Shown here piece by piece: positions 6,348 to 24,577 of a DNA stretch of 61,795 nucleotides. The position numbers and the translations under genes are program-made. The DNA is from a virus. Position 1 is the stretch's first letter, and every line of letters begins with the position of its first letter. The stretch is taken from positions 1-61,795 of IMG/VR virus record IMGVR_UViG_3300031825_000009; one strand, given 5' to 3'. The notes under the pieces are model-generated. The model was not told the origin of the DNA. It did no database searches and saw nothing but the letters and a program-made list of their open reading frames with translations.

Positions 6348-6504
6348 AGGTGACCACCGCGATGCCGTTGGAGTGGACCTTGCGGGTGGCCTTGCGGCCG
6401 TCCTCGGTGGTGATCTCGGTCACGGCCAGGGCCGGTCCGGCCACCGGGGCCGTCGGGGTCTCGGCAGACGCCTCGGGGGCGTCCGCGGCAGGCTTACGCG
6501 CTAT
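6340..6504 (-). CDS. Possible small protein between portal and scaffold, AUA start
   Basis: A 54-codon frame bridges the portal stop and scaffold start, ending in a conserved-looking segment (VTEITTEDGRKATRKVHSNG). It contains no ATG or TTG, and the only GTG codons lie late. An ATA at 6502-6504 is preceded by GGAG at seven bases. Its TGA overlaps the scaffold ATG region. It may instead be non-coding, or start at GTG 6444 or 6423. Confidence 0.35.
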   Translation of the reverse strand: MARKPAADAPEASAETPTAPVAGPALAVTEITTEDGRKATRKVHSNGIAVVTYG

Positions 6505-8041
6505 TGCTCGTCTCCATTTGCTTCTGGGCCATTCCGCCCATTTGGTTGATGGCGTTCGGCCCGAGCTTCTCGGCGAGCTGCATGAGCATGGCCTGCTGCT
6601 GCTGGGCCTGGACTTCCTCCTTGGACAGGAGGAGGCCGTCGATCTCGATCCCGAGGGCGACCGCCCGCCGGGTCAGGTAGTCCTGCCAGTCGATGTACTG
6701 CGCGAGCTGCGGCGCGATCTGGACGGTGGCTGCGAGCGCGTCGAGGCGGTCGAGGTCCTGCCCGCGGCCGATCGCTTCGAGGCCCGTCACGACCGCCGGC
6801 TTGATCTCCGGCGGCAGCGGCGGAAGCTCGCCCTGCTTCTGGAGCTGGAACATGCGGCGGTTGATGAACGGGAGCTGGAGCTCGACGGACATGAGGGAGT
6901 AGATTCCTCCCATCGCGTCGTCCAGCTCGCGGGCCATGAAGCGGATCTCCTCCGCCGTCACCCGCTCGCCATTCCGCTGGATCGCGGTGTTGAGGAGGAA
7001 CGCGAAGGAGAGGCGCTGCTCCAGGGCCGCGACGCGCTCCAGGGTGACCCTGAAGTCCGCGTACTTCTCGACCTGGAACGCCTTGACGGCGTCGTGCTCG
7101 GCGACGACGAAGCCGCCGTTGACGCAGCCTGTGAGGTCGTCCGGTCGGACCGTGGCGCCGGGCTTGATCAGGTTGATGATGCGGGCCGCGATCTGGGCGG
7201 CATCATCGAGCGCCTTGGACTGCGTCTCCAGGGTCGCGAGATCGCCGATGTACTCCTCGACGAAGCCGCGGCCGTAGTCCTCGCCGTCGACCTTCATCCA
7301 GCGAACGGCGATCCACGGGGTCTTGTCGGTCGGGAAGGTGCCGATGGAGCCGGGGACGACGATGCCCTCGATCTCCTGGTGCGTCTTGTACCGCTTCTTC
7401 GGCCCTTCGAGCTGGACGTAGGTGTAGACGTCCACCGTGTCGACCTCGGGGGTCTTGGCGTCAGCGGGCTTCACAACGTCCACGGCGGCCCGAACCTTCT
7501 CGGGGAGCGTCTCTCGGGCGACCGCCTCCTTCACGACGATCTCCAGGACCGTGCCGTCCGGGGACCGCTTCACGACGTACTTGTCGAGGCGGAACACGCG
7601 GAGGCCGCCGGAGGGCGGAAGGTAGAGAAGGACGTTGCCGGAGACGGCCAGGAGGCGGAAGGCTTCGTAGAAGGAGACCCGCAGGGCCTCGGCGTCCATC
7701 GTCTGGATGACCTTGCGGACGATCTTGGCGAGCCCGCGATCGACCTCGGCCTTCATGCCCTGCTGCTTCGTCAGCTCCTCAAGGGTCATCTCGTCGATGG
7801 CCAGCTTGAAGAAGGGGACGTTGGGCGGGAACTGGCTGATCAGGAGCTTCGCGGCGATGTTGTTTAGGCCGCGAGCCCCGATGCTCTGGTACGGGCTCGG
7901 CAGGGCGGCCCCAGGCTGGAGGCCCTCCGGAGGGAACAGGGCCGGGATAGTGAGCGTTGCGCACTTCCGGGCCATGTCCAGGTAGGGCTGTCGTGTCGCC
8001 TGGAGCCGGGCATACCGAGCGGAGGCGATGCCCTCGCTCAA
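6494..8041 (-). CDS. Portal / head-tail connector (T7 gp8-like)
   Basis: A 515-residue connector protein of the T7 gp8 family, the dodecameric portal through which DNA is packaged. Typical signatures are the N-terminal RYARLQATRQPYLDMARKCA, the GEDYGRGFVEEYIGDLATLE block in the middle, RVTAEEIRFMARELDDAMGG, and a glutamine-rich C-terminus. The start is TTG at 8041, overlapping the TGA of the gp7.3-like gene (TTGA). This continues the 4-nt overlap pattern of the block. Length and gene order agree with T7. Confidence 0.95.
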   Translation of the reverse strand: MSEGIASARYARLQATRQPYLDMARKCATLTIPALFPPEGLQPGAALPSPYQSIGARGLNNIAAKLLISQFPPNVPFFKLAIDEMTLEELTKQQGMKAEVDRGLAKIVRKVIQTMDAEALRVSFYEAFRLLAVSGNVLLYLPPSGGLRVFRLDKYVVKRSPDGTVLEIVVKEAVARETLPEKVRAAVDVVKPADAKTPEVDTVDVYTYVQLEGPKKRYKTHQEIEGIVVPGSIGTFPTDKTPWIAVRWMKVDGEDYGRGFVEEYIGDLATLETQSKALDDAAQIAARIINLIKPGATVRPDDLTGCVNGGFVVAEHDAVKAFQVEKYADFRVTLERVAALEQRLSFAFLLNTAIQRNGERVTAEEIRFMARELDDAMGGIYSLMSVELQLPFINRRMFQLQKQGELPPLPPEIKPAVVTGLEAIGRGQDLDRLDALAATVQIAPQLAQYIDWQDYLTRRAVALGIEIDGLLLSKEEVQAQQQQAMLMQLAEKLGPNAINQMGGMAQKQMETSNSA

Positions 8042-8253
8042 GTCGGGATATTGAGCCCTGTACGACCCATGCCGCTGCCGGCGGCTAGGTCGATCTTGAG
8101 GGCGTTACGCCCGGACCGCTTGGTCGAGGTCACGCGCTTGGCGGCGGCGCTGTCGCCGGTGCCGAAGTTCGGCGGGGTGGCCGGATCGCTCGGCGGAGCC
8201 GGCGCTGGGGCCGGGGCTTCTGCCTGCTTGATGCTCGGCTTCGTGGGGCACAC
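8038..8253 (-). CDS. T7 gp7.3-like virion/tail assembly protein, 71 aa
   Basis: A small protein starting MCPTKPSIKQ, with a Pro/Ala-rich middle and a C-terminus SGRNALKID then MGRTGLNIPT. The basic stretch followed by a glycine-rich end resembles the C-terminus of T7 gp7.3, and the gene is immediately upstream of the portal as in T7. GTG start at 8251-8253 overlaps the preceding TAG by one base. Assigned by position and C-terminal similarity. Confidence 0.65.
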   Translation of the reverse strand: MCPTKPSIKQAEAPAPAPAPPSDPATPPNFGTGDSAAAKRVTSTKRSGRNALKIDLAAGSGMGRTGLNIPT

Positions 8254-8462
8254 TAGGTGGATGGCTCCTGTTGCTTGCGGTAGATCTCCAGGAGCCGAGC
8301 CGCGAGGCCCCGCTCTCCGACCATGATCCAGATCTTCCGGTCCGGCATCTCCGGGTCCGGGAGCTTCTCCGGGTAGTTCTGTGAGAGCCAGTCGGCCAGC
8401 TCTGGAGTGATCTTCGGGAGGTCGGGCTGGCGGAGGGTGGCCCCTATTCCGCTGACTTTCAC
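8253..8462 (-). CDS. Hypothetical protein, 69 aa
   Basis: Starts MKVSGIGATLRQPDLPKITP and ends LEIYRKQQEPST. No motif recognised. GTG start overlaps the MazG gene stop (GTGA), and its own TAG touches the next start, so it is one link in a translationally coupled chain between nucleotide-metabolism and head genes. Confidence 0.65.
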   Translation of the reverse strand: MKVSGIGATLRQPDLPKITPELADWLSQNYPEKLPDPEMPDRKIWIMVGERGLAARLLEIYRKQQEPST

Positions 8463-8794
8463 CGATGGTCTCCGCTGCCGCCAAGGACACCGCGGCGGGC
8501 GCGGTCTCGGGTCTTCTCGGTGTTCATCTGGGCGACCGTGCTGAGCTTGTAGCCCAGCAAGCGGGCGGTGTTGGCGACGTACCAAAGGACGTCCCCAAGC
8601 TCCTCGGCGGTGACCATGCGGTCCCACTCGGTGAACCGGCCGCCCCGGTCCCGGTAGACCTTCTTGACCTTCTCGGCGACCTCTCCCGCCTCTCCGCAGA
8701 GGCCGAAGACGCTCGCCGGGAGCATGTGCTCCGGGACGGTGACGACGTCGTGCTCGGCCGCGGCGTCCTGGAAGGCGTCGAAGTCGTTGGTCAC
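8459..8794 (-). CDS. MazG-like nucleotide pyrophosphohydrolase
   Basis: A 111-residue all-alpha NTP pyrophosphohydrolase of the MazG superfamily. GEAGEVAEKVKK supplies the ExxxE metal-binding helix and EELGDVLWYVANTARLLG the second ExxxD helix. Such phage enzymes hydrolyse (d)NTPs or alarmone-type nucleotides and are thought to adjust the host nucleotide pool during replication. GTG start overlaps the upstream TGA. It lies next to a DUF3310 gene and the exonuclease, an arrangement common in T7-like and cyanophage genomes. Substrate is unknown. Confidence 0.88.
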   Translation of the reverse strand: MTNDFDAFQDAAAEHDVVTVPEHMLPASVFGLCGEAGEVAEKVKKVYRDRGGRFTEWDRMVTAEELGDVLWYVANTARLLGYKLSTVAQMNTEKTRDRARRGVLGGSGDHR

Positions 8795-9018
8795 GACGCC
8801 TCCAGGGCGGAGATGTAGACGTCGAGCGCGTGCCGGGCCTTCTTCAGGTCCTCGACACCGCCCTTGTCCTGCCAGCGGGTGACGTACTTGACGACGGCAC
8901 CCTCGACGAAGCCGAGCTTGTTGGCGATGCAGTAGACGATCGGCTGGATCGCCAGCTTGGTGTAGTGGTCCCCGCCGACCTGTTCGGCCAGCGGGGAGGT
9001 CTTCGAAGCGTGCGTCAT
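8791..9018 (-). CDS. DUF3310 protein (T7 gp1.7-like nucleotide kinase family)
   Basis: A 75-residue protein with the DUF3310 signature GGDHYTKLAIQPIVYC, then GFVEGAVVKYVTRWQDKGG and a leucine/aspartate-rich helix ending DVYISALEA. The family includes T7 gp1.7, a nucleoside-monophosphate kinase, but this protein is only the core domain. ATG overlaps the exonuclease stop (ATGA). Function beyond the family is inference. Confidence 0.85.
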   Translation of the reverse strand: MTHASKTSPLAEQVGGDHYTKLAIQPIVYCIANKLGFVEGAVVKYVTRWQDKGGVEDLKKARHALDVYISALEAS

Positions 9019-9803
9019 CAACCTCCAGGAGGGATCCAAAGTATCGGTTCGTTCTTCCGGTAGTCGTACTCGCCGTGCCGGAGGATGCGGGCGACGCGGG
9101 CCTGTACGAGCGCCTCCTCGGGACCGAGCTTGGCCTTTCGGAAGGCTTCCAGGACGGCGGCCCACGCCTCCTCGACGGTCCCCCACGGCGGGCTGACGCC
9201 GAACAAGATCGCTTCCGCCTTGACCGGGCCGACGCCGGGGCACCCTGCGTAGCCGTCGGTGGCGTCCCCGGTGAGGGTCTGCGTGAGGTGCCAGAAGTCC
9301 GCATCCCGGAGGGACACCTCGACGACCCCGAGGTCCGCTTTCTTCCAGTTGAAGTGCAGGCCGGGGATAGTCGCGAGGTCCTTGTCGAGGCTCACGACGA
9401 TCTTCTCGGCTCCGGGATAGAGCCGCGGGTTCGTGGCGAGGATGCCGAGGACGTCGTCAGCCTCGATGCCCGGCTTGGACCGGGCGCCCGGCTTGGCGAG
9501 GAGGTACGCCTCCAGCTCCTTGCGGATCATCGGCGGCCGGGTCTTGGCCCGGTGGGCCTTGTAGGTCGGCAGGATCGTCTTGCGGAAGTTCCGGCGGGCC
9601 GGGTCGCTCATGCAGTAGACGATCTCGTCCACCGACAGCTTGTCCCGGATGCCGGCCTCCCACTGCTCGATCAGGCCCTTGGCCTCCTCCTCGTCGGCGG
9701 TCACGGACCAGACGCCCTCGTCCCACTCGATCGCCTTCTCGACCTGGGCGGCGTACTGGTAGGCGACGATGTCCCCGTCGATCAGGGCGACGCGGTGCGT
9801 CAC
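9018..9803 (-). CDS. 5'-3' exonuclease (T7 gp6-like, FEN family)
   Basis: A 261-residue FEN/PIN-fold nuclease. The N-terminal THRVALIDGDIVAYQYA has the first acidic metal ligands (DGD). RRNFRKTILPTYKAHRAKTRP is the family clamp region, PGIEADDVLG and VSLDKDLATIPG carry further aspartates, and TGDATDGYAGCPGVGPVKAE includes the helix-hairpin-helix. In T7 this enzyme degrades host DNA, removes RNA primers and assists concatemer formation. GTG start at 9801-9803 overlaps the preceding TGA (GTGA). About 40 residues shorter than T7 gp6. Confidence 0.93.
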   Translation of the reverse strand: MTHRVALIDGDIVAYQYAAQVEKAIEWDEGVWSVTADEEEAKGLIEQWEAGIRDKLSVDEIVYCMSDPARRNFRKTILPTYKAHRAKTRPPMIRKELEAYLLAKPGARSKPGIEADDVLGILATNPRLYPGAEKIVVSLDKDLATIPGLHFNWKKADLGVVEVSLRDADFWHLTQTLTGDATDGYAGCPGVGPVKAEAILFGVSPPWGTVEEAWAAVLEAFRKAKLGPEEALVQARVARILRHGEYDYRKNEPILWIPPGG

Positions 9804-9994
9804 GCTTCCCGGAAACCCCGGCTGATGTCCCGGCAGGGCAGGTAGAAGCCGCTCGCCGGATCGGGGCAGTAGCGGACCGCTGACGGCCTCTCCGGCGGCA
9901 CCTTGTGAACCTCCTGCATCGCGGCTACCGGGAGCCACGCGAGCGCCATAGCGCCCGCATAGCCCAGCAGGAGGCCCGCCAGCCGTCCAATCAC
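9800..9994 (-). CDS. Small membrane-anchored hypothetical protein, 64 aa
   Basis: Starts MIGRLAGLLLGYAGAMALAW, one hydrophobic helix, then a soluble tail with two cysteines (RYCPDPASGFYLPCRD). GTG start overlaps the stop of the upstream 24-codon gene. No lipobox is evident. It could be a small inner-membrane or spanin-like protein, but no family was recognised. Confidence 0.55.
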   Translation of the reverse strand: MIGRLAGLLLGYAGAMALAWLPVAAMQEVHKVPPERPSAVRYCPDPASGFYLPCRDISRGFREA

Positions 9995-10065
9995 GACTGC
10001 TGCGCCAAGCTCACGGCTACGGCGAAGAGGACGAGGGCGATCAAGGCGCGGGTGGCGAGGTCCAT
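9991..10065 (-). CDS. 24-aa membrane peptide
   Basis: Reads MDLATRALIALVLFAVAVSL and four more residues, then TGA: essentially one membrane helix. The ATG overlaps the upstream TGA (ATGA) and its TGA overlaps the next GTG (GTGA), so it fits exactly into the coupled gene chain, the main argument that it is real. Confidence 0.5.
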   Translation of the reverse strand: MDLATRALIALVLFAVAVSLAQQS

Positions 10066-10280
10066 CAGCGGCGAGCCCAGATGGCGGCGTACTGCTCGGC
10101 CAGCTCGATGCGGACCTCGATCAGGTCCTCGAAGGTGTCCTGGGCCACGACGACGGCGTCGACCGCAACGGCGGCGATGAACTGGGCCAGCGCTGCGGCA
10201 GCGAGAAAGAGGGCGGCGGCCGGGATGCTGGCCACGAGGGCCAGCCGGCGGAGGTAGAGGTTCTCGATCTTGGTGATCAT
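10065..10280 (-). CDS. Small membrane protein, 71 aa
   Basis: Begins MITKIENLYLRRLALVASIP and contains one long or two short hydrophobic segments (AALFLAAAALAQFIAAVAVDAVVV), followed by an acidic helical tail. ATG overlaps the TGA of the HNH-like gene. Not recognised. Confidence 0.55.
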   Translation of the reverse strand: MITKIENLYLRRLALVASIPAAALFLAAAALAQFIAAVAVDAVVVAQDTFEDLIEVRIELAEQYAAIWARR

Positions 10281-10678
10281 GAGGCTCCTTTGAGCAAGTT
10301 GGGGGCGTAGAAGCGGGCCATCGCAGCCAGCTCCGACCGTGATGCGGACGACTTCAGGCGGTTCGCCCGCCACGAGACGACGACCACGTTGCCCTTGATG
10401 TACCCGTGCTCCGGGATGATCTTGTCGAGGGACGGGGTGGCGTTCGTGCGGGGGCCGCCGGAGCGGTTGAGGGTGATCCCGAGGATCGGGCAGCGGTCCG
10501 GGATGACGATGTCGTCCAGGTCGATGCCGAAGGGGAGCCCGTCCCGCTTGGCCCGGTAGCGGGCGGAGCTGAGGAGGCGGCGCTCTATCGCGCGGTCAGT
10601 GGGTGTCTTTCCAGGACTGGCCGATGACGGACTGGCCGTCGAGGGGACACCCGAAGTCGAAGTGCGTGCCAGCGTCAA
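10277..10678 (-). CDS. HNH-endonuclease-like phage protein
   Basis: The core reads RYRAKRDGLPFGIDLDDIV, then DRCPILGITL, SLDKIIPEHGYIKGNVVVVS and WRANRLKS. This matches a widespread group of small phage proteins related to HNH nucleases (one C-P-x-L-G step, then D-x-x-P-x-x-G-Y), often encoded near DNA polymerase. The classical His-Asn-His residues are not all visible, so nuclease activity is uncertain. The only standard start is an ATG at 10678 inside the end of the polymerase gene, giving an 83-bp overlap and about 25 N-terminal residues that look like read-through of another frame. The true start may be later and non-canonical. Confidence 0.65.
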   Translation of the reverse strand: MTLARTSTSGVPSTASPSSASPGKTPTDRAIERRLLSSARYRAKRDGLPFGIDLDDIVIPDRCPILGITLNRSGGPRTNATPSLDKIIPEHGYIKGNVVVVSWRANRLKSSASRSELAAMARFYAPNLLKGAS

Positions 10679-12560
10679 TGATCGCTTGTTCTGCGGTCTT
10701 TCCGACGAAATCGGCCCACTTCTCTGCTACGTCGATCTGCCACTCGTCATGGACGTTCGCGGCAAACTCATAGTCCACGCCGGGGACGAGCCCGGCTTCT
10801 TGTAGGCGCTTGTCCAGGAAGACGAGGGCCTGCTTCATGAGGATCGCCCCGGCGCTCTGGAGGAGCGTGTTGAGGGCGGCGTGAGCGGACCGGACGTGCA
10901 GCTTGCGCCCGTCCAGCCCGATGAGAAAGCCGCGGGTTTCCACCCGCTTTGCGATCCGCTGCACGAGGGTCCCGAGGGCCGGGAGGCTCCGCAGGAAGGT
11001 CTTGCGGGACCGCTCACCAGCGGCGGCAGCGACCTTGTCGACGCGGCTCCCGTCACGGCGCTTGGTCCAGTGATCCGGGTTCGTCGGGTCGCCCCGCTTC
11101 CCCATGATCCAGCCGAGCTTCTCGTTCCCGGCCCCGTAGATGAAGGCATAGAACCAGGTCTTGGCGATGTCCCGGCCCTTGGTCGGGGTGCCGTCGACTA
11201 GGTACTCCGCCTTCGGGTCCAGCCCGAGCGCCCGGCAGTTGACCGAGTGCATGTCCGTCCCGAGGTCCTTGTTCCCCTCCAGGACGGTCTTGATGTAGGC
11301 GCCACCGTCGATCGGAGCGAGGTAGCCGGCGAGGCAGCGCAGTTCCAGGGCGTCGGCATCGCAGCCCACGAGGCGTCCGAGAGAGTGCTCGAAGAGGTCC
11401 CGGCACTCGTGCCCATAGGGAGAGCCGCTCGACGGCACTTGGCCCATGTTGGGCTCCATGTGCGTCATGCGGCCGGTTACGGCGCCGTTGGTGACGATCG
11501 ACCCGTGGAGGCGCCCGTTGCGCTCCATCTTGAGCCACGCCATGCGGCCCTCGGCGAGCATCCCGATGCGCTTCTGGATCATCAGGTACTCGGAAAGCGG
11601 CTTGGCCTCCGGGTAGGGGAGCGTCGAGAGGACGGTGTCGTCGACCGTCGGCTTGCCGTCCTTACCGAACTCGGCGGGCTCCCATCCCCGCAGCTTGATG
11701 AGCCGGTCGGCGATGTGGTCGCGCGAGGACGGGTTGAAGTCGATCAGCTCGATCTTCTGGTAGACGGCCTCTTCGTGGTAGGTGGTCGGAGAGTGGACAC
11801 CCTTCCGCATGACGCGGGTCTTCTTGACGGTGACCACCTCTCGGCCACGGAACCAAGGTGGGAAGATCGTGCGGAGGTCCCGCTCCAGGTCGCAGCGCTT
11901 CTGGACCAGATGGCCGTAGAGCTTGCGGGCCTTCTCGACGTTGAACCGGAACCCCCAGGCTTCCTGCCGCAGGACGATCCGGGCGACGTCGTGCTCCAGC
12001 TCGATGCACTGTTCGGAGAACGGGATCGGGTCCTTGTCGCCCACGCCGGCAAGGCGGAGCAGGGCCTTCTTCCAGAGCCGCACGGTGACCCGCACGTCCT
12101 GGTCCATGTAGTCCTGCATCTCCTGGGACCAGCGATCCCAGGGGCCTTCGAACTCGCCCTTGTAGAGCCCGAGCCGGTGGCCGAACGCTTCGAGGCTGTA
12201 CTTGCCGATCAGCCTGGACGGGAACTGTCCATTCTCACGGCGGCGGAAGTCGGTGTCCTTGATGTCCGCCCATAGGACCCGAGCCATGAGCATCGTGTCG
12301 CGGGCCTGAGCGGACGTCCGCCACTCCGGGTAGACCTTCTGGATCGCTCGAAGGTCGAAGCCGACGATGTTGTGCCCGACGATCAGGTCGGCGTCGGCGA
12401 GGAGCCGTAGGCCGTGCTCGATCGGAAAGTAGTTCGGGCTGTCGTCCGTGCAGGAGATCAGCTCGTCCGTGTCGAGGTCGATCAGGGCGAGGCAGTGGAC
12501 GCGGGTGAGGTCTTCGAGGAAGCCGTCGGTCTCGACGTCGAAAGCGAAGCGGCGGCCTAT
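10596..12560 (-). CDS. DNA polymerase I family (T7 gp5-like), apparent AUA start
   Basis: A family A replicative polymerase with 3'-5' exonuclease, 654 residues against 704 in T7. RRFAFDVETDGF at the N-terminus is exonuclease motif I, VGHNIVGFDL motif II, and MDQDVRVTVRLWKK includes motif III. The polymerase part has GCDADALELRCLAGYL (motif A), KTWFYAFIYGAG (motif B) and FAANVHDEWQID (motif C). It ends CPLDGQSVIGQSWKDTH, like the T7 C-terminus. There is no in-frame ATG, GTG or TTG before residue 90. The frame opens naturally at ATA 12558-12560, overlapping the upstream stop (ATAG) and preceded by AAGGTGG at eight bases. AUA is therefore the likely start. Confidence 0.95.
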   Translation of the reverse strand: MGRRFAFDVETDGFLEDLTRVHCLALIDLDTDELISCTDDSPNYFPIEHGLRLLADADLIVGHNIVGFDLRAIQKVYPEWRTSAQARDTMLMARVLWADIKDTDFRRRENGQFPSRLIGKYSLEAFGHRLGLYKGEFEGPWDRWSQEMQDYMDQDVRVTVRLWKKALLRLAGVGDKDPIPFSEQCIELEHDVARIVLRQEAWGFRFNVEKARKLYGHLVQKRCDLERDLRTIFPPWFRGREVVTVKKTRVMRKGVHSPTTYHEEAVYQKIELIDFNPSSRDHIADRLIKLRGWEPAEFGKDGKPTVDDTVLSTLPYPEAKPLSEYLMIQKRIGMLAEGRMAWLKMERNGRLHGSIVTNGAVTGRMTHMEPNMGQVPSSGSPYGHECRDLFEHSLGRLVGCDADALELRCLAGYLAPIDGGAYIKTVLEGNKDLGTDMHSVNCRALGLDPKAEYLVDGTPTKGRDIAKTWFYAFIYGAGNEKLGWIMGKRGDPTNPDHWTKRRDGSRVDKVAAAAGERSRKTFLRSLPALGTLVQRIAKRVETRGFLIGLDGRKLHVRSAHAALNTLLQSAGAILMKQALVFLDKRLQEAGLVPGVDYEFAANVHDEWQIDVAEKWADFVGKTAEQAIIDAGTHFDFGCPLDGQSVIGQSWKDTH

Positions 12561-12784
12561 CGGGGTACCACCTTGAACGTCTTGCGGGCGGCCGCCGCCT
12601 TCCGGTTCATGCTCTTCCGAGCAAGCTGGAGTGCGACCGCGTTGTGGTAGGTCTTGGCCCGGCCGAAGGTCTCCCGCGCGGCGGCGACGAGGTCGCTCTC
12701 CAGGACGGTGGCCTTGACGAGGTCAGAAGGAGCCGGTCTCGGCGCCGGCTGCGGGATCACCATAAGTGCCGAACCCGTGGTCAT
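12557..12784 (-). CDS. Hypothetical protein between helicase and polymerase, 75 aa
   Basis: Starts MTTGSALMVIPQPAPRPAPS inside the 3' end of the helicase gene, with a strong Shine-Dalgarno (AAAGGAGG, seven bases before ATG 12784), and ends with a basic helix (RKSMNRKAAAARKTFKVVPR). The overlap with the helicase is 62 bp. Its TAG overlaps the presumed ATA start of DNA polymerase. No family recognised. Confidence 0.65.
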   Translation of the reverse strand: MTTGSALMVIPQPAPRPAPSDLVKATVLESDLVAAARETFGRAKTYHNAVALQLARKSMNRKAAAARKTFKVVPR

Positions 12785-14390
12785 CGGATGCCTCCTTTGT
12801 GGGGTCGCCCTCCAGCTCCACCAGCCGCCCTCGGCCGGGGTCGTACCCGAAGAACACGCACTGGCCGGTCGATTGGCCGGTGTAGCGGTCCTTGAGGACG
12901 CGGAAGGTGGTCGTGGAGCGGGCGACGAGGTCCTCGGCCTGCTGATTTCTCTCCAGGCCGAACATGAAGTGGCACCAGAAGCCGATGGCCCTGGAGCCCT
13001 TGAAGTGCCGGATCATCACCCGGCCGCCCTCCTCGTGGGGCTTGCCCTCGGGGGTGGCGAGGTGGCTGACGAGGTGGATGACGACGTCCAGTTCCTTCAC
13101 CAGGGCGCCCATCTCGGACATGATCCGCTCAAGCGCCGTGCGTTCGTCGTCCTCCGCCGCGGCAAGCGCGGTGAGGTGGTCGACGTAGAACAGGCGGACA
13201 CCGGCCGAGTGGGCCAGGAAGCGGATGATGGTCTGGATGACCGACCAGTCCGTCGCCCCGAAGCTGTCGTAGAGGTAGAGCTTGCCGCTCCCCTCCAGGC
13301 TGTCGAGCGCTTCGATCAGCTCGGGGCCGGTCCAGCTCCCGTCCGGGACGTGGAACCGCTTGCCGGCCAGCTTCCCGGCGATCCGCTTGATCGTCTCGAC
13401 GGGCTGCTGTTCCAGGGCGAAGACCGCCACCGGCTCCTTCAGGTGCGTGATGTCGAACTGGATCTGCTCGGTGAGGAAGTCCGTCTTGCCGACGCCGGTG
13501 CCGGCGCCGAAGGCGTAAATCTCGCCGGTCCTGCGGCCGTAGGTCAGCTTGGTGAGCTGAGGGGTCCACCAGGGGAGGCCCATGACCGGGTCTTCGAGGA
13601 CCCTGTCGCGGACGTCCGAGATCGTCACGACCCCGTCCGGGCGGAACTCTCGGGCGCCCCAGATGGCGGAGATGATCTCGCCCTCCCGGCCGGCCTTGAG
13701 CATCTCGCTCGCGTCCTTCAGGGGGAGCTTGGCGATCTTGCAGCGCCCCGGCGGGAAGAGCTGAGCGCAGTCCTGGGCGGCGGACCGGCCGACGTCGTCC
13801 TCGTCGAACATGAGGACAACCGTGTCGAACCGGAGAAGCCACTGGAGCGCCTTGGATAGGGACTTGCGGGCGCCCTGAGCGCCGTTCGGGACCGACACCA
13901 CGGGCCACTTGTTGCCCTGGGCCTGGGAGACCGACAGCGCGTCGATCTCACCCTCGGTGATGACGATCATCTTGCCGGCGTCGCGCCAAAGGTGCTGGCC
14001 GTAGAGGCCCGCCGCCTTGGTGTCGCCGAGGAACCGGAAGTCCTTGTTCTTGAACCGGACCTTCTGGGCGACGATGCGCCCGGTATCGGGGTCCCGGTAG
14101 TTGGCGACCTGGACAGTCTGGCCGCCGAGGTTGCTGACCGTGTAGCCCCACTTGCGGCAGGTCTCGTCGGTCAGCCTGCGGGCCGAGAGGGGCTGGGCCT
14201 CTCCCGGCTCGATCAGGTCAGATGACAGGCGATGCGTCTCCTTTCGGTCTGGTCGATCCTGCCCGTCGCCGGGCTCGTAGTGGCCGCACCCGAAGCAGTA
14301 GGCGTGGCCGTCGGAGTACCGGGCGAGGTTGTCGCGGGAGCCGCACGCTGGGCACGGCTCCTTGTGGAGGAAGGAGCTGTCGTCCTGGAT
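12723..14390 (-). CDS. Primase-helicase (T7 gp4-like), start abnormal
   Basis: Bifunctional DNA primase and hexameric replicative helicase. At the N-terminus a C4 zinc ribbon is visible: CPACGSRDNLARYSDGHAYC then FGC. The TOPRIM primase motifs are TEGEIDALSV and LMFDEDDVGR. The RecA-like helicase has Walker A GAGTGVGKTDF, Walker B region RLFYVDHLTAL and the RHFKGSRAIGFWCHFMFGLE C-terminal motif. About 555 residues, close to T7 gp4A (566). The upstream gene's TGA forms a GTGA overlap, but that GTG is one base out of frame. No ATG/GTG/TTG lies in frame between the upstream stop and the zinc ribbon. ATC at 14388-14390 would give an N-terminus aligning with T7. A one-base deletion in the CCCC run at 14396-14399 is the alternative. 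Confidence 0.93.
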   Translation of the reverse strand: MQDDSSFLHKEPCPACGSRDNLARYSDGHAYCFGCGHYEPGDGQDRPDRKETHRLSSDLIEPGEAQPLSARRLTDETCRKWGYTVSNLGGQTVQVANYRDPDTGRIVAQKVRFKNKDFRFLGDTKAAGLYGQHLWRDAGKMIVITEGEIDALSVSQAQGNKWPVVSVPNGAQGARKSLSKALQWLLRFDTVVLMFDEDDVGRSAAQDCAQLFPPGRCKIAKLPLKDASEMLKAGREGEIISAIWGAREFRPDGVVTISDVRDRVLEDPVMGLPWWTPQLTKLTYGRRTGEIYAFGAGTGVGKTDFLTEQIQFDITHLKEPVAVFALEQQPVETIKRIAGKLAGKRFHVPDGSWTGPELIEALDSLEGSGKLYLYDSFGATDWSVIQTIIRFLAHSAGVRLFYVDHLTALAAAEDDERTALERIMSEMGALVKELDVVIHLVSHLATPEGKPHEEGGRVMIRHFKGSRAIGFWCHFMFGLERNQQAEDLVARSTTTFRVLKDRYTGQSTGQCVFFGYDPGRGRLVELEGDPTKEASDDHGFGTYGDPAAGAETGSF

Positions 14391-14400
14391 CGTGTGGGGC

Positions 14401-14811
14401 TCACTCGATCATGGGGAGGCTGCCGAAGTCGTAGCTGCGCCCCGTCGGCGTCGGCTCGATGCGGACAACCCGGAGGGCCGTCGCGGGATCGCGCACCATC
14501 AGCACGAATGGCTGGGAGGCGGCCGCGGCATCGGGATCGCAGACGATCCGGCACGACTGGCGGGCCATCAGGTCCGCGTCCGGGCCGCCCGTGGTCGAGA
14601 TCCAGGTCCAGCGCCCTGGCAGGGTCACGGCAGGGGTGATCAGCTCGGCCTCGCCCGTTTCCGGGTCGGGCTCGCCGCGGACTTCCTCGGCGAGGTAGAC
14701 CGTCACGCCGGCGATCACGTGGCCGGTCAGGCGGCCCTCGACGACGCGGTCGGCGAGATCGGCCAGCAGCGCGGCCTCGTCGGGGTGGCAGAGGAGGTGA
14801 TCGGCGCTCAC
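14401..14811 (-). CDS. Hypothetical protein, 136 aa, fibre-module partner
   Basis: Starts MSADHLLCHPDEAALLADLA and contains TLPGRWTWISTTGG. No domain was recognised. GTG start overlaps the stop of the fibre-like gene (GTGA) and its own TGA abuts the primase-helicase, so it belongs transcriptionally to the fibre-like module. It may be a chaperone or a virion component, but nothing in the sequence proves this. Confidence 0.6.
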   Translation of the reverse strand: MSADHLLCHPDEAALLADLADRVVEGRLTGHVIAGVTVYLAEEVRGEPDPETGEAELITPAVTLPGRWTWISTTGGPDADLMARQSCRIVCDPDAAAASQPFVLMVRDPATALRVVRIEPTPTGRSYDFGSLPMIE

Positions 14812-16076: not shown

Positions 16077-16081
16077 CCGGG

Positions 16082-16390: not shown

Positions 16391-16431
16391 GCGGCGCTGG
16401 TGTCCTTTCTGAGAGGGAGTGGAAGGAGGGA

Positions 16432-16466
16432 GGCCGGCCCCGCGGAGGGAGCCGCTAGGACCGGCC
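16432..16466 (-). other. Intergenic GC-rich hairpin upstream of the fibre-like module
   Basis: On the minus strand GGCCGGTCC pairs with GGGGCCGGCC (9 bp, one G-U), closed by a loop that itself contains GCGG/CCGC. There is no U-tract, so an RNA-processing site or attenuator is more likely than a terminator. Confidence 0.45.
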
Positions 16467-16476
16467 AGTGTAGGTG

Positions 16477-17874: not shown

Positions 17875-17930
17875 GCTGAGCTTGCTCTCGTTCTGCTTGC
17901 GTTCGTTCTGGGGAGGTTCTTGGTCGACCG

Positions 17931-18503: not shown

Positions 18504-18559
18504 GGGTGTTCGTTCCCTGTTGAGGGTGCCTAGAGAGGCTCGATGGGTGGGGGTGAAGG

Positions 18560-18588
18560 GGCGGCCCCAGGAAGGTCCCAGGGCCGCC
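18560..18588 (-). other. Strong intergenic hairpin between endonuclease and HTH gene
   Basis: GGCGGCCC and GGGCCGCC form a perfect 8-bp stem with a 13-base loop directly downstream of the endonuclease stop on the minus strand. No U-run follows. It could be a processing site of the kind T7 has between early and middle genes, or a weak terminator. Confidence 0.5.
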
Positions 18589-18594
18589 GTGAGG

Positions 18595-18987
18595 TCAGTG
18601 CTTGGTGGCCGCCTCGATCGCCTTCCAGCGGGCTTCGCTGTAGGGCTCGGCGAACCACTCGGGAGGGATGCGGGCGTCCGCGAAGCGGAACCCGTAGCGC
18701 CGGCACCAGTCGGCGTAGGTCGTCTTCGACGCCTTCGTCAGACGAGACGAGGAGCGGCTGAAGACGAACCGCAGGTCCAGGTCAGGGTGCTGCTCCTGGA
18801 GAAGCTTGTGCTTCTGGCGATCCTCGGTGAGGAAGCGCCCCTTGGTTTCGACGATGATGCCGTTGGGAAGGATGAAGTCCGGCCGATACGTCGAGGGCTT
18901 GCTCGGCTTGACGTAGGCGAGGCGGACTTCCTCGTACTTCACCTGGAGGCCCGCCGCGGCGATCTGGGCCGCGACGGTGTCCTCCAA
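18595..18987 (-). CDS. Endonuclease I, Holliday-junction resolvase (T7 gp3-like)
   Basis: T7 endonuclease I resolves branched DNA and breaks down host DNA. Here RPDFILPNGIIVETKG contains the catalytic Asp and the Glu-x-Lys pair, and DRQKHKLLQEQHPDLDLRFV and RFADARIPPEWFAEP follow as in T7. The only standard start (TTG 18987) would put the catalytic Glu of SGLED at residue 2 and cut off the conserved YRSG before it. The frame stays open upstream through AAGYRSG and into the end of the SSB gene (to about 19050) without ATG, GTG or TTG. The real start is therefore probably upstream and non-canonical, for example an ACG at 19050 five bases after AAGGA. Confidence 0.92.
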   Translation of the reverse strand: MEDTVAAQIAAAGLQVKYEEVRLAYVKPSKPSTYRPDFILPNGIIVETKGRFLTEDRQKHKLLQEQHPDLDLRFVFSRSSSRLTKASKTTYADWCRRYGFRFADARIPPEWFAEPYSEARWKAIEAATKH

Positions 18988-19027
18988 GCCGGAGCGATAG
19001 CCGGCGGCTAGGCCCCGTGCGTCGGGC

Positions 19028-19768
19028 TTAGAAGTTGCCCGAGCCGTCGTCTTCGTCCTTGGGCGAGGTGCTGCCGTCGTCGGCCTGGGCGCCCTCGGCG
19101 GCCGGAGCCTCCGGGTTGCCGTCCTCGTCGTAGCTCTCGAAGCCGTCGTCGTAGGTCTCGAAGCCCTCGGTCGGGTTGACCTCGACGCCGGTGCCCTGGA
19201 CCAGCTTGATGATCTGGGCAGCGACCAGCTTGACGCTGACGCCGACCTTCTTCTGGCCGGACCAGTAGTCGGCCTCGGCCGTGAAGTTGACGGCCATCGT
19301 CGATCCGGACCACGGGACCGCCTTGGTCGGCTTGCCCTTGCCGTCGACCACGACCGGCCGCTGGTTCACGACGTTCTCGACGCCGGTCTTCTTGTCCTTC
19401 CAGCGGCGGACAGCGTTCATCTTGAACTCGCACGAGATCTCGCCGGTGGGCTCGGCCTCGTCGTCGAGCACCTCGCGGAACGGCGAGCGGGCCATCTCGG
19501 CCTCCTTCAGGGCCACGAGGAGCTTCTTCTTCTCCTTCGGGTCCTTCTCGGCGGCCGCGGCGGCCTTCATCTCGGCCATCTTGTCGGTCGCCATCTTCTC
19601 GACCTTCTCGCGGATCGGGGAGATGACCTCGGCCGGCCAGATCAGCGTGACCTTGTAGACCCCGTCCTTGTTGAACTTGGTGTCCGGGACGTCGAGGCGC
19701 GGGTAGAGGGCGCGGCCCGGCGGGGTCGTGAACTTCACGCGGTTCCGGGGCTTGTAGGCTTCGGCTAT
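19028..19768 (-). CDS. Single-stranded DNA-binding protein (T7 gp2.5-like), likely AUA start
   Basis: A gp2.5-type SSB. VYKVTLIWP, CEFKMNAVRRWKDKKTG, RPVVVDGKGKPTKAVPW and VGVSVKLVAAQIIKLV follow the T7 order. The C-terminus is strongly acidic and ends in phenylalanine (DEDDGSGNF), the tail that contacts polymerase and helicase in T7. The only standard upstream start is TTG 19807, which has no ribosome site. ATA at 19766-19768 follows AAAGGA at about nine bases and gives MAEAYKPRNRVKFTTPPG, close to the expected family N-terminus. I prefer ATA; 246 residues. Confidence 0.9.
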   Translation of the reverse strand: MAEAYKPRNRVKFTTPPGRALYPRLDVPDTKFNKDGVYKVTLIWPAEVISPIREKVEKMATDKMAEMKAAAAAEKDPKEKKKLLVALKEAEMARSPFREVLDDEAEPTGEISCEFKMNAVRRWKDKKTGVENVVNQRPVVVDGKGKPTKAVPWSGSTMAVNFTAEADYWSGQKKVGVSVKLVAAQIIKLVQGTGVEVNPTEGFETYDDGFESYDEDGNPEAPAAEGAQADDGSTSPKDEDDGSGNF

Positions 19769-19793
19769 GTGCTTGGTTCCTTTCAGGGGGTTC

Positions 19794-19976
19794 TCAAGCG
19801 CGACCAACGACCCCGGTGGGGACGACTAGAAAGTGCGGGTCGCTCTTGATGGTTTCAGCGTCCTCGGGACGGGCCGGCCGTTCGTGGTGAGTGTCCTCGA
19901 ACATGCGCAGCAGGGCCGCACGGGACGCTTTCGTGCGGCTTGTCTCGGGTCCAGTCAGAAAGACGGCCCAGGTCAG
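19794..19976 (-). CDS. Hypothetical protein, 60 aa, possible CTG start
   Basis: Reads MTWAVFLTGPETSRTKASRA if started at CTG 19976, which overlaps the upstream TGA (CTGA) in the same way as the GTGA/ATGA junctions elsewhere. The only ATG (19908 region, MFEDTHHERP) would leave about 36 residues. No family recognised. Confidence 0.45.
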   Translation of the reverse strand: MTWAVFLTGPETSRTKASRAALLRMFEDTHHERPARPEDAETIKSDPHFLVVPTGVVGRA

Positions 19977-20134
19977 AGGCGCTCGCTCGCCGTGGCCTCG
20001 TAAGCCTGGATGATCCGCTCGACGTCGAGGCCCTCGGCGAGGCACTCGGCGATCAGGTCGACCGGGACATGGGCGCGGTCGCCGTACTTGCGGAGGAGCT
20101 TGCGGAGGCGGCGCTCGTTGACAGAGACCCGCAT
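19973..20134 (-). CDS. Hypothetical protein, 53 aa
   Basis: Starts MRVSVNERRLRKLLRKYGDR and ends AYEATASERL. A compact basic helical protein with no recognised domain. ATG overlaps the upstream TGA (ATGA) and its TGA overlaps the next frame, so it fits the coupled chain. Confidence 0.6.
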   Translation of the reverse strand: MRVSVNERRLRKLLRKYGDRAHVPVDLIAECLAEGLDVERIIQAYEATASERL

Positions 20135-20415
20135 CACCGGCGACCCCGCACGTCGCGGACGATCTCCTCGCGGACGTACTCCAGAGCGGCAGCGATCTCC
20201 GGCTGGTCCTTGGAGGCGTCGAGGAGGTTCTTGGCGGCGGTCATGACGTCGAATGCGGACGCCTTGCTGGCCGCGCAGATGGCGATGAAGAGGAGCGCCG
20301 CGGCGTGGGCCTGAAGTTCCGCCTGGAAGTTCTGGAGACGGGACACGGCGGCCATCAAGGCGGCGCCGACCGCCTTCGGGCTGGCGTGGTTGAGCTTGTC
20401 GGGGTCGAGGATCAC
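20134..20415 (-). CDS. Hypothetical helical protein, 93 aa
   Basis: Starts MILDPDKLNHASPKAVGAAL and is alanine-rich and helical throughout, ending VREEIVRDVRGRR. GTG start overlaps the antirepressor gene stop (GTGA). No function suggested by motifs. Confidence 0.6.
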   Translation of the reverse strand: MILDPDKLNHASPKAVGAALMAAVSRLQNFQAELQAHAAALLFIAICAASKASAFDVMTAAKNLLDASKDQPEIAAALEYVREEIVRDVRGRR

Positions 20416-21338
20416 GGCAGCACCGGCTCCTCGATCACATGACCCTTGAGGAGCGTCAGCTTGCCCTCGGTGTAGAGCTTGGCGACTTCCTTCAGGCCGT
20501 CCTCGGTGACGTAGATGTCCACCGTGCCGAAATACTCGTTCACCCGCTCGGTGAAGAGCTTCTCCCGGAACTGGTGGTAGACCCGGTACGGGGAGGCGCT
20601 GTTGAGCCGGTAGAAGTACCCGAGGTTCTTCAGGTCCCGCTTGATCAGGTTCGAGTTGAGGCCGGGAAGGTAGCGGCCGAGGTGGCCGATGCGCTTCTTG
20701 GTCTTCCCGACGACCTGGGACACCCGCCCCAGCTCGTCCTCGGCCTGCCGCTTCGCCGCCCGCGCCGCCTCGGCCTCCGCCTTGGTCCGCGCGTGGGCCT
20801 CCAGCTCTTCGGCCAGCTTGAGCGACATGGCCGCGTTCTGCCGCAGCGCCGAGGCGAAGTCAGGCGGCAACGGGATCGGCTCGCCTTCCGGGAGCATGTA
20901 GCCGCCGGTCTTGCGGATGGACGGCAGGACCTCCCGCGTCACCCACTCCTGGAACGGCTTCGCGGCCGGCTTGTTGGATCGCATGATGAGCTTGTAGAGG
21001 CCGCTCTCGGAGACGGTCCGGTAGATGGTGTAGGGCTTGTGGGTGCCAGGGGAGGTTTCGATCGAAACGAAACCCAGCTCGTCTGCGGAAAGTGCGCGTG
21101 TGGCGTCGGTCACGTTCGCCTTTCCGGCGTGCGTCACGCGATAGCCGAGCGTCTTGCAGACGTCAGCGACCACGAACCACGGAGCCCCGTCGATCGTCAC
21201 CACGCGAACGGTGTGCGTCTTGGAGACGCCGTCGATGAGGGCCTGGAAGTCGAACCGCCGGACGGGCGACGCTTCGCTGGTCCCGGCGCTGAACTTGGAG
21301 ACCTTCGGGGCCTCCTTGGTGGCGGTGTGGGCGATCAC
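20412..21338 (-). CDS. BRO-N domain antirepressor-like protein
   Basis: A 308-residue protein. Residues about 25-135 are a BRO-N/ANT-type domain: HTVRVVTIDGAPWFVVADVC, KTLGYRVTHAGKANV, TVSESGLYKLIMRSNKPAAK, FQEWVTREVLPSIRKTGGYM. A charged coiled-coil follows (residues about 175-215), then a C-terminal winged-helix-like domain (LGYFYRLNSASPYRVYHQFR, VYVTEDGLKEVAKLY-like). Such proteins act as antirepressors or developmental switches in temperate phages, which fits a T7-like phage capable of lysogeny. GTG start overlaps the upstream TGA. No repressor gene for this phage is in the window. Confidence 0.85.
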   Translation of the reverse strand: MIAHTATKEAPKVSKFSAGTSEASPVRRFDFQALIDGVSKTHTVRVVTIDGAPWFVVADVCKTLGYRVTHAGKANVTDATRALSADELGFVSIETSPGTHKPYTIYRTVSESGLYKLIMRSNKPAAKPFQEWVTREVLPSIRKTGGYMLPEGEPIPLPPDFASALRQNAAMSLKLAEELEAHARTKAEAEAARAAKRQAEDELGRVSQVVGKTKKRIGHLGRYLPGLNSNLIKRDLKNLGYFYRLNSASPYRVYHQFREKLFTERVNEYFGTVDIYVTEDGLKEVAKLYTEGKLTLLKGHVIEEPVLP

Positions 21339-21733
21339 TGCTTGCTCTCCTTGCGCTTGGTGATGGTGTCCGCCGCCCGCTTCTTGGCCGCCCGCAGGGC
21401 TCCGGCCTCGATGTCGTGGCGGCTGGGGGCCGTGGCCGCGTAGCCCCGGCGTCGGGCGTCGCGGGACTTTGCCGCGGACCGGCCGCGCGTCTTGGGGGCG
21501 GCCTGCTTGCGCCGGGCGTCCAGCTCTTCGCGGACCTTGAACGGCAGGCGGCGGCTGTTCTTCGGGAGGACCTCGGTGTCCATCATGGCGAGGACCGCGG
21601 CCTTCCGAAGCTCGGACTTCTCGGCGCCCGTCATGCGGCTGCGGTCGAACGTCAGGCCGGCGACGCCGACCTCGTCGTGCGCCGCTCCGAGGCGGATCGT
21701 CAGGGCGTAGGAATGCTTGTGCTTGCTCGGCAC
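21335..21733 (-). CDS. Basic hypothetical protein, 132 aa
   Basis: Starts MPSKHKHSYALTIRLGAAHD, with a C-terminal half very rich in Arg, Lys and Ala (KTRGRSAAKSRDARRRGY). It is probably nucleic-acid binding by charge, but no domain is recognised. GTG 21733 start; its TGA overlaps the BRO-N gene. First gene after RNA polymerase. Confidence 0.55.
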   Translation of the reverse strand: MPSKHKHSYALTIRLGAAHDEVGVAGLTFDRSRMTGAEKSELRKAAVLAMMDTEVLPKNSRRLPFKVREELDARRKQAAPKTRGRSAAKSRDARRRGYAATAPSRHDIEAGALRAAKKRAADTITKRKESKQ

Positions 21734-21784
21734 TCGCGAACTCCAGATTGGTGTGTGAGGGGGCGCGAAGCGTTGGCGGAGGGT

Positions 21785-21803
21785 GGCCCCCATTGCGGGG
21801 GCC
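21785..21803 (-). other. Perfect 7-bp hairpin between RNA polymerase and the next gene
   Basis: GGCCCCC-GCAAT-GGGGGCC on the minus strand, directly after the RNA polymerase gene. There is no U-tract, so processing or pausing is more likely than termination. Confidence 0.5.
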
Positions 21804-21821
21804 GGCTCCTCGGCGCCTTGG

Positions 21822-24383
21822 CTACGCGAAGAAGAACGGGGACGAGAGGACCTCGGACAGGTCCAGCGTTCCCTGAGGTGGCAGCTCCGGGACCTCCTTG
21901 CGAAGGTCCTCGGGGAGCTGGCCGAGGAGGCGCTCGCGGAACTCGGCGAGCGGGTCGTGGTCGGTGTACATGCCGACGAAGGCGGCCCGAAGCTCGCGGG
22001 CGAGCGTGTCCGTGTCGGCGGCATGGGTGCCGTAGCTGTCGTGGACCATCGCGAACGACGCGATGCCGGCGGCTTTGGCCCGGAGGACCGTGAGCGTCAG
22101 CGCTGCCGCGTCCAGCGAGTGGACGAAGTTCGGAGCGATGGCGCTCGCCTGCCTGAGCTTGGCGATCTCCCCGGTGTCCTCCCGCACGAGCGGGCGGACG
22201 ATCTGCCCGTGAATGCGGGTCTTGACGCGCCGGTCGTGGTGGGCGGCGTAGCGCTGGTAGACCAGGAACCCGGACGGGGCGGCCCAGGTCAGCGGAATGT
22301 CCGCCTTTCCGGCCACTCGGGCGGCCGCCTGGAGCCACGACATGCCGACCCTCGCGGCCACCACGACTTGGCCGATCGAGGCCCAGACGAGCGACCCGAG
22401 CCAGCCGACGGCGGCGCTCCACTCCTCCTCGGGGACGTCGAGCGAGGCGCCGGCTGCGATCTTCTCGCGGACCGCGTCCCGCACGTAGTCGCGGCAGGAG
22501 GTGATGGTGCCGCCGTAGGGGAGGACCATGACCGACCGCTTGGTGATCTTGCGGTCGATCCCGAAGTCGAGGAAGGCGTGCGCCCAGGATCGCGTCGTCT
22601 CCTCCTCCACGCATTCATGGAGGGGGCGTGTGGCCACGTCCAGCAGGCGCTCCTCAACTACCTTGGCGACCTCCCCGTACACGTCCTGGGGCCGATCGCT
22701 CGGCACGAGGTTGACGGCTCGGCCGCCGACCGGGTCCCGGAGCATGGCCGAGTAGTGCTGGAGGCCGTTGCAGGAGCCGTCGAGGGCGATCGGCAGGGAC
22801 GAGCGAAACGCCAGCCCCTCGCGGAGGTAGCCGGACCACTCGTGGCAGGCCGCCAGGAACGACCAGGGGCTATCCGCGCCGGTCCACCAGCGGTTCGCGA
22901 GCGGGTCTGCGGCGACCGCCTGGATGGCCTCCCGGTGCCCGTCCACCCACGCTCGGCGGGCGTCGAAGGGGACCTTGTCCTCGCCCCAGGTGTTCGCCGT
23001 GTGGACCGCGAGCCAGTTGGCGGCGGCCTCCGTGCCCAGGGGCTTGCCCTCGGCGAACGTCAGGAGGCCCTTGGCGAGGTCGTCGCCCTGGGGCTGAAGC
23101 CACCGCGGCAGGGCATAGAGCCGCCCGCGGAAGTCCAGGTTGTGCGGGAAGTACATGGCCTCCCGCTCGGCGTAGTCCTCGGCGATCCGCAGGCACTCGG
23201 CGACGCTGCGCCGTTGGGTGACCAGCTCGGACCTGAGCCGGTAGACGTCGTGCGCCTCCCGTCGCCAGACCCGCCGGGCCTCCTCGTTGGTCTCGATGTC
23301 CTCCGGCTTGGCCGGGACCGGCGGATCGTCCCGCGGCGGCAGGATCGGAATGTCGAGCCCGCCGTCCCAGATGGCCTTGGCGACCTCCAGGACAGGGCGG
23401 TTCACCCGCCAAGGGGTCTCCTGGACGGCGTTGAGGGCGCCGGTGACGCGGCTCAGGTCCGCCTCGGCGGTCAGAAGCCGGCCATGCTCGGCCCGGTTCG
23501 AGAACTTCACGAGGCCGGCCCGCTGGAGCCTCTCGGTCCAGTAGCCGCCGCTCCGGAGCCCGGTCCAGGGCTTCGGCGGGATGACACACGGCCGGGCGGC
23601 GGGGGCGAGCCCCTCGACACGGCGGTTGTAGTCCGTCACCCAGGAGGCAGCCGCCGGCTCCAGGGCGAGCATGGTGGTCGTCTTGGGCACGCCGCGGACC
23701 ATCTTCCGCGCGGTGTCGAGTCGCACCATGCCGGTGGCGTCGATCAGCAACTCGACCAGCTTCGCCCCGACGATGACGCGCTCGCCGGCCGTCCACCGGG
23801 TGGGCTCGATCCCCTCCCGGAACATGGCGACCGAGATGGCCCGGCGCTTGTGGATCTCGTTCGAGGTCGTCTCGCGGAAGCGCCGCTCCCACCAGCGCCA
23901 GAGCGACGGGTGGGCCGCCTCGAAGCGGGCGACGGACGCCTCGACCTCCAGAGCCGTGCAGATCGCGTTGGCGACCGGAGCGAGTGGCTGCGGGCCGGAT
24001 GCGAGGCCGTCGAGGACGTGGCGGGCGGTGAGGTAGGCGATCTCGTCGGGGTCCATGTCCCCGACCAGGAGGACCGCCGTGTGGCGCGGCCCTGGGCGGC
24101 CGCTGCGGGCGTCCTCGAAGAACGATCGGATGGCCTCGGAGAGCGGTCCGACGACCGTCGTCAAGAGGCGCCTGTAGCCGGCGGCCTGGGTGGGGTGACC
24201 GCGTTCCTCGGCCCGCTTCAGGCGGTAGCGGAACACGTCGATCCCCTCGTCGTACATGCGGTCCTCGATCTCCTCTTGGACCGGCCAGAGCGGGTGGTCG
24301 GTAGGCGAACAGAACGTGATCGCGGGGCTTTCCTTTCTCGCAATTTCAAGACCGCTAGGCCACGCCTTACGCCACGGTGGCAC
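21822..24383 (-). CDS. Single-subunit DNA-dependent RNA polymerase (T7 gp1-like)
   Basis: The defining enzyme of Autographiviridae, transcribing the phage middle and late genes. PCVIPPKPWTGLRSGGYW, NLDFRGRLYALPRWLQPQGD, ALDGSCNGLQHYSAMLRDPV (catalytic Asp), TKRSVMVLPYGG (with the catalytic Lys/Tyr region) and APNFVHSLDAAALTL then FAMVHDSYGTHAAD (second catalytic Asp) all align with T7. It ends SSPFFFA, like the T7 FAFA foot. From GTG 24383 it is 853 residues (T7: 883). That GTG has no ribosome site. ATC at 24318-24320, ten bases after GAAAGGA, would give 832 residues and may be the true start. Its 5' end is about 120 bp from the tRNA 3' end. Confidence 0.96.
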   Translation of the reverse strand: MPPWRKAWPSGLEIARKESPAITFCSPTDHPLWPVQEEIEDRMYDEGIDVFRYRLKRAEERGHPTQAAGYRRLLTTVVGPLSEAIRSFFEDARSGRPGPRHTAVLLVGDMDPDEIAYLTARHVLDGLASGPQPLAPVANAICTALEVEASVARFEAAHPSLWRWWERRFRETTSNEIHKRRAISVAMFREGIEPTRWTAGERVIVGAKLVELLIDATGMVRLDTARKMVRGVPKTTTMLALEPAAASWVTDYNRRVEGLAPAARPCVIPPKPWTGLRSGGYWTERLQRAGLVKFSNRAEHGRLLTAEADLSRVTGALNAVQETPWRVNRPVLEVAKAIWDGGLDIPILPPRDDPPVPAKPEDIETNEEARRVWRREAHDVYRLRSELVTQRRSVAECLRIAEDYAEREAMYFPHNLDFRGRLYALPRWLQPQGDDLAKGLLTFAEGKPLGTEAAANWLAVHTANTWGEDKVPFDARRAWVDGHREAIQAVAADPLANRWWTGADSPWSFLAACHEWSGYLREGLAFRSSLPIALDGSCNGLQHYSAMLRDPVGGRAVNLVPSDRPQDVYGEVAKVVEERLLDVATRPLHECVEEETTRSWAHAFLDFGIDRKITKRSVMVLPYGGTITSCRDYVRDAVREKIAAGASLDVPEEEWSAAVGWLGSLVWASIGQVVVAARVGMSWLQAAARVAGKADIPLTWAAPSGFLVYQRYAAHHDRRVKTRIHGQIVRPLVREDTGEIAKLRQASAIAPNFVHSLDAAALTLTVLRAKAAGIASFAMVHDSYGTHAADTDTLARELRAAFVGMYTDHDPLAEFRERLLGQLPEDLRKEVPELPPQGTLDLSEVLSSPFFFA

Positions 24384-24435
24384 CGCCTAGCGGCCTCAAT
24401 GCCACCAAATCCGCTCCATTTCTGGAGCCATCAGT

Positions 24436-24503: not shown

Positions 24504-24577
24504 TGGAGGTGACGGCCGGATTTGAACCGGCGTACACGGATTTGCAGTCCGCTGCGTAACCACTCCGCCACGTCACC
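24504..24577 (-). tRNA. tRNA-Cys (anticodon GCA)
   Basis: Acceptor stem GGTGACG/CGTCACC, anticodon stem-loop GCGGA-CTGCAAA-TCCGT with anticodon GCA, T-stem GCCGG-TTCAAAT-CCGGC, and CCA encoded at 24504-24506. The gene is complete. Its 3' end faces the T7-like block and its 5' end faces the siphophage integrase 106 bp away. tRNA 3' ends are the usual attachment sites of T7-like lysogens. Confidence 0.96.

Follow-up and report, generated by a model that had tools for sequence, protein, structure and literature searches.

Putative AUA and AUC start codons in several genes, mostly for DNA replication, of a T7-like phage

Introduction

From which codons are phage genes translated when their reading frames offer no ATG, GTG or TTG ahead of the conserved N-terminus? 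This question is raised by the IMG/VR record IMGVR_UViG_3300031825_000009, a 61.8-kb virus contig analysed over its whole length of 61,795 nucleotides (hereafter the window). A preliminary description had proposed AUA, AUC and CUG starts in several genes of its T7-like block. Our analyses suggest that several genes, most of them for DNA replication, are translated from AUA or AUC, inefficiently and with rescue by SD sequences or by coupling, a reading to which we give a probability of roughly three in four. Overall, we regard these starts as a real, lineage-specific and probably functional feature.

Results

Genomic context

The T7-like genome runs from ~24.4 kb to the left end of the contig, with every gene on the minus strand. 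Its genes are, in order, those of RNA polymerase, an anti-repressor-like protein, SSB, endonuclease I, primase-helicase, DNA polymerase, endonuclease VII, exonuclease, MazG, portal, scaffold, endolysin, capsid and tail tube. The block hence has the order RNAP-SSB-EndoI-primase/helicase-polymerase-exo-portal-scaffold-capsid-tail, on one strand, of T7-like (Autographiviridae-type) phages. The RNA polymerase is of the single-subunit T7 type (phrog_414, E 3.5e-261; PF00940, 346 bits). Among annotated phages, the closest are Rhizobium phage Pasto and Mesorhizobium phage Lo5R7ANS (L101), two temperate T7-like phages listed with Bradyrhizobium and Mesorhizobium. Their gene order and proteins are similar (polymerases 49-51% identical), but they hold standard starts at the homologous positions.

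Two copies of AATRGGGGCCACCCTCCGCCA are found on the minus strand at 8428-8448 and 21774-21794, where chance would yield none, and they are positioned like phage-polymerase promoters. ATA 8447, within g8253, was rejected as a start since it is part of this 21-bp promoter-like repeat. A tRNA-Cys gene lies at 24504-24577. The adjoining minus-strand ORF (24683-25906) has by eye a tyrosine-recombinase-like C-terminal motif, RHGG...HKS...Y, and no Pfam, PHROGs or NCBIfam match. To the right, a second tailed phage (26000-61795) has its own terminase and capsid, an S24 repressor and a VanY-type endolysin, and is interrupted by an IS630-type transposase (31085-32077).

DNA polymerase and primase-helicase

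For each gene, the in-frame codons from the preceding stop to the conserved N-terminus were enumerated codon by codon. Coding boundaries were also placed by codon usage, with a codon table from the block's other genes and without homology. In the DNA polymerase and primase-helicase genes, no NUG start is compatible with the conserved N-terminus, and the sequence evidence makes a strong case for non-standard starts in both.

The frame of the T7 gp5-like DNA polymerase (10596..12560, minus strand; phrog_17/phrog_15971) opens at 12722, and its first ATG, GTG or TTG, at 12293 (codon 144), already falls within the exonuclease domain. The proposed start, ATA 12560-12558, shares bases with the upstream TAG (ATAG) and lies 7 nt after the SD AAGGTGG. 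The window reads ATA GGC CGC CGC TTC GCT TTC GAC where the relative L021 has ATG GGC CGA CGT TTA GTT TTC GAC. The codon-usage boundary falls at 12557, one codon downstream of the ATA, and the best standard start scores 111 bits worse. The preliminary description of this site is borne out, save that it had counted eight bases to the SD; none of its SD sequences or spacings is off by more than one base.

The T7 gp4-like primase-helicase (12723..14390, minus strand; phrog_239) is in a frame that opens at 14408. From its first standard codon, at 13970 (codon 147), the zinc-binding domain would be lost. As had been proposed, ATC 14390-14388 stands at the T7 gp4 start position; it is 10 nt past the upstream TGA, without an SD. 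The L127 gene starts with ATG ACC GAA GAA AGC TCC TTC...TGC, against ATC CAG GAC GAC AGC TCC TTC...TGC in the window, and both the ATG of L127 and L126 and this ATC are 12 codons ahead of the first zinc-site Cys. The codon-usage boundary is 4 codons upstream of the ATC, and the best standard start is 151 bits worse. In none of 152 relatives does this gene lack a standard start.

A putative helicase-only product similar to T7 gp4B (12723..14228, minus strand) could be made from an internal CTG (14228-14226) after GAAAGGAG, a strong SD. At most 3 codons from this site, the relatives L126, L127, L103, L034, L023 and L112 carry an ATG or GTG with an SD. This internal start, which had been overlooked, also seems weak.

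Endonuclease VII and the 54-codon gene

Non-standard starts also have a good sequence-based case in two further genes. The 54-codon gene between portal and scaffold (6340..6504, minus strand) overlaps the end of the portal gene and has no other in-frame start upstream. Its ATA (6504-6502) was indeed found 7 nt after GGAG, as previously described. The window reads GGAGACGAGCA-ATA-GCG-CGT-AAG where Pasto gp39 reads GGAGACGCCCACAG-ATG-GCT-AAA, so that position and context are shared (GGAGACG..ATG GCT AAA in Pasto). Codon usage places the boundary at 6495, 3 codons downstream, and a standard start is 10 bits worse.

The endonuclease VII/HNH-like gene (10277..10588, minus strand; phrog_3322) was missing from the earlier list of cases, which was thus incomplete. 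Its ATA (10588-10586) is 7 nt past the DNA polymerase TGA, with no close SD, and the aligned codon in L116 is GTG. The codon-usage boundary, 10597, is 3 codons upstream, and the best standard start, TTG 10678, is 30 bits worse.

RNA polymerase, SSB and endonuclease I

The RNA polymerase gene (21822..24320, minus strand; phrog_414, PF00940) probably starts at ATC 24320-24318, with moderate confidence from its sequence context. AAAGGA lies 10 nt before this codon, the resulting N-terminal length agrees with relatives, and the codon-usage boundary is 6 codons downstream. The rival GTG 24383 is 15 bits worse. It had been described as lacking a ribosome site, but a weak GAGG is present. The GTG is within the stem of a long perfect hairpin in the leader (24345..24410, minus strand; folding energy z -2.1), and ATC 24320 is favoured because of this strong hairpin. 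RNA folding of the start regions showed nothing unusual at four sites and a strong hairpin only ahead of RNA polymerase. The hairpin might be a terminator, a processing site or an operator.

For the gp2.5-like SSB (19028..19768, minus strand; phrog_112), the probable start, again with moderate confidence, is ATA 19768-19766, 9 nt after AAAGGA. The sole standard codon upstream is TTG 19807, without an SD, in line with what had been noted. The start region, IAEAYKPRNRVKFTTPPG, aligns with MAKDTKKKLPQFTTPRG of Lo5R7ANS. Codon usage contests this choice, with TTG 19807 ahead of the ATA by 10 bits. However, codon usage misfits by 21 bits even in g16477, where no other start competes with the ATG, and the preference for TTG in SSB is therefore not decisive.

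The endonuclease I gene (T7 gp3-like; 18595..19011, minus strand; phrog_945) is less clear. TTG 18987 cuts off the conserved YRSG, as had been claimed, but no ATN or NTG codon before YRSG accounts for a start. The codon-usage boundary, at 19008, is seven codons before TTG 18987 and just after CTA 19011, with no ATN or NTG codon there; ACG or CTA is a possible start. Among relatives, the apparent endonuclease I start of L112 is a CTG overlapping the SSB stop (CTGA), and L037 has ATT where L103 has TTG.

A small gene had also been proposed at 19794..19976 (minus strand). The CTGA overlap at CTG 19976 is present, but we found no homolog and no SD, which leaves the gene unsupported.

Codon usage and relatives

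The codon-usage boundary is at most 4 codons from the proposed start in the polymerase, primase-helicase, endonuclease VII and 54-codon genes. Inside genes, AUA is nearly absent, with 3 occurrences in 7022 codons (0.43 per 1000), whereas it is found at the start sites of four among 30 genes (P ~1e-5 or less, a guide only as the window was picked for the feature). A comparison of internal AUA with Met in homologs, as a sign of an alternative code (AUA = Met), would have only these 3 codons to draw on. Anchored core genes without a standard start amount to 3/8 in the window versus 4/677 in relatives (P ~1e-5, also a guide only, the relatives being mutually related and the window picked for the feature). 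Automatic anchoring of those 677 genes missed some loci, such as the L104 polymerase, which by eye has no standard start. We rejected chance on the basis of the rarity of AUA, which argues against its fortuitous presence at starts, and of the rate in relatives.

The proposed codons coincide with homologous starts in L021, L127, Pasto gp39 and L101. The preliminary description had counted ATG or GTG at these places in related phages against its own reading. Such codons are indeed there; we read them instead as fixing the position of each start, the codon having changed in this lineage. Similar changes are found in other genomes. The exonuclease gene begins with ATA AGA ACA CTT CTG ATT GAC GGC GAT in L175, GTG AGA ACC CTC CTG ATT GAC GGC GAT in L130 and TTG AGA ACA CTA CTG ATC GAC GGG GAC in Lo5R7ANS, and with ATA ACA ACC in L104 versus TTG ACC ACC in L026. 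In the polymerase gene, L030 has ATC, preceded by GAGGT, where L101 and L033 have ATG; L029 has ATT or ATC after AAGGAGGT, and L120 has ATC. Unlike the infC-type start, whose non-canonical codon is conserved across relatives, the positions concerned mostly hold ATG, GTG or TTG in relatives. Together with the independent changes in L175, L104 and L030, the ATG and GTG of relatives indicate that the codons are lineage-specific. Weak starts thus appear to recur in this group by within-codon change, at ~1% per gene, the window being the extreme case.

Alternative explanations

Sequencing or assembly errors, or decay of a prophage copy, might have produced ATA and ATC in this record only, the true or ancestral starts being ATG. 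The aligned places in relatives do hold ATG, and searches of viral contigs (by pattern), phages and plasmids turned up no further record of this phage; a portal scan across viral contigs gave no match. Nevertheless, errors are blind to reading frames, and here start codons alone have changed: the ~7,000 internal codons contain no nonsense codon, all frames are open, and independent sister phages show the same type of change. On the coding strand, 68 ATGG tetramers are intact versus 6 ATAG, and a G-to-A error on ATGG was rejected on these counts. We consider error or decay unlikely; the earlier view of a real feature rather than a single error is supported. A host-wide relaxation of initiation, by a weak IF3 or an altered initiator tRNA, would make AUA and AUC ordinary starts and would explain why several genes are hit together. 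It is improbable, as the second phage of the contig has, by the same codon-usage method, a standard start beside every predicted gene boundary except that of the IS transposase, and related phages of other hosts show merely sporadic cases.

A more serious contender, although its chances are well short of even, is that standard starts lie elsewhere, at GTG 24383 or ATG 24257 for RNA polymerase, TTG 19807 for SSB, TTG 18987 for endonuclease I and TTG 10678 for endonuclease VII, with only the two or three clearest cases being non-standard. All these codons are in frame, the SSB TTG agrees with codon usage, and the endonuclease I TTG retains a Glu that we take to align with the catalytic E20 of T7. 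However, they have no SD, the weak GAGG of GTG 24383 apart; this GTG is held in the hairpin stem, codon usage disfavours the endonuclease VII and RNA polymerase candidates by 30 and 15 bits, and the explanation is inapplicable to polymerase or primase-helicase. The N-termini could instead come from programmed frameshifting or from a fusion to the preceding gene, with no need for new starts, given that upstream genes end at or near the starts and that a +1 shift at GAG-UGA leads into the primase-helicase frame. Yet there is no recognisable slippery site, relatives start independently at the same position, the polymerase frame upstream is non-coding (-1.2 bits per codon), and a separate device would be required for each gene, which makes this scenario scarcely credible.

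Discussion

We propose that, in this lineage, each AUA or AUC took the exact place of an ATG, GTG or TTG. The initiator fMet-tRNA would mismatch these codons at the third base, and initiation would be inefficient and disfavoured by IF3. An SD would rescue it for the polymerase, SSB, 54-codon and RNA polymerase genes. Re-initiation after a stop could serve the polymerase (ATAG), the primase-helicase (10 nt past the stop) and endonuclease VII (7 nt), and re-initiation inside an overlapping gene could serve the 54-codon gene within the portal end. Such starts can be functional. In Staphylococcus aureus, the AUA starts of infC, ccpN and citZ work, with ccpN and citZ reporters at ~10-30% of AUG (PMC13009471), and an ATG-to-ATA change in Escherichia coli rpoS gives up to 5-fold less protein, i.e. 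about a fifth or more is kept (PMC12864459). IF3 represses re-initiation without SD (PMC2268962) as well as rare starts such as the GTC of Streptomyces sigR (PMC5472188).

Low output may be a selected or a tolerated consequence. High transcription by the phage polymerase would make weak starts tolerable, and drift might then suffice; alternatively, weak starts would be useful if less replication enzyme were made in the lysogen. The data fit adaptive tuning and tolerated drift alike. In a more specific version, which we find rather unlikely, AUA and AUC would act as a translational lock that keeps leaky transcripts of the lysogen from yielding more than traces of polymerase or helicase until massive transcription by the phage RNA polymerase or a drop in IF3 overcomes it. 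As counterpoints to the mechanism, SSB, which is essential and needed in quantity, is an odd candidate for a weak start, an SD is missing ahead of both the primase-helicase ATC and the ATA of endonuclease VII, and endonuclease I is not explained by AUA or AUC.

If AUA/AUC initiation is genuine, a measurable share of T7-like genomes would have replication genes cut short or overlooked by standard gene-finding programs (4/677 anchored genes of relatives lack any standard start). Protein output from these genes would be weak and possibly controllable, phage expression could hinge on IF3, and siblings differing by one start-codon base would form a naturally occurring set on which the fidelity of initiation could be tested.

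Among known systems, pcnB in bacteria has a non-NUG start of the AUU/AUC/AUA type. The phage genes would share with pcnB and infC such a start with an SD and inefficient, IF3-discriminated initiation. In infC and pcnB, however, the codon is conserved and regulatory, and a single gene is concerned; the phage case involves several genes and a codon that is not conserved among relatives, and IF3 dependence is putative. For infC, the shared properties are documented (PMC13009471, PMC5472188). The ccpN, cvfC1 and citZ genes of S. aureus have AUA/AUU starts, AUA having been shown by retapamulin profiling and reporters (PMC13009471). They share the AUA start but are host genes with extended SDs, whereas the phage SDs are ordinary or absent. 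The sigR gene is similar in that a rare start lowers output in a high-GC genome, but it is a single regulator gene and experimentally proven. A search of the open-access literature returned no report of several AUA/AUC starts in one phage. Non-NUG starts are already known in single bacterial genes, and the use of AUA/AUC by several essential genes of one phage would be the new aspect.
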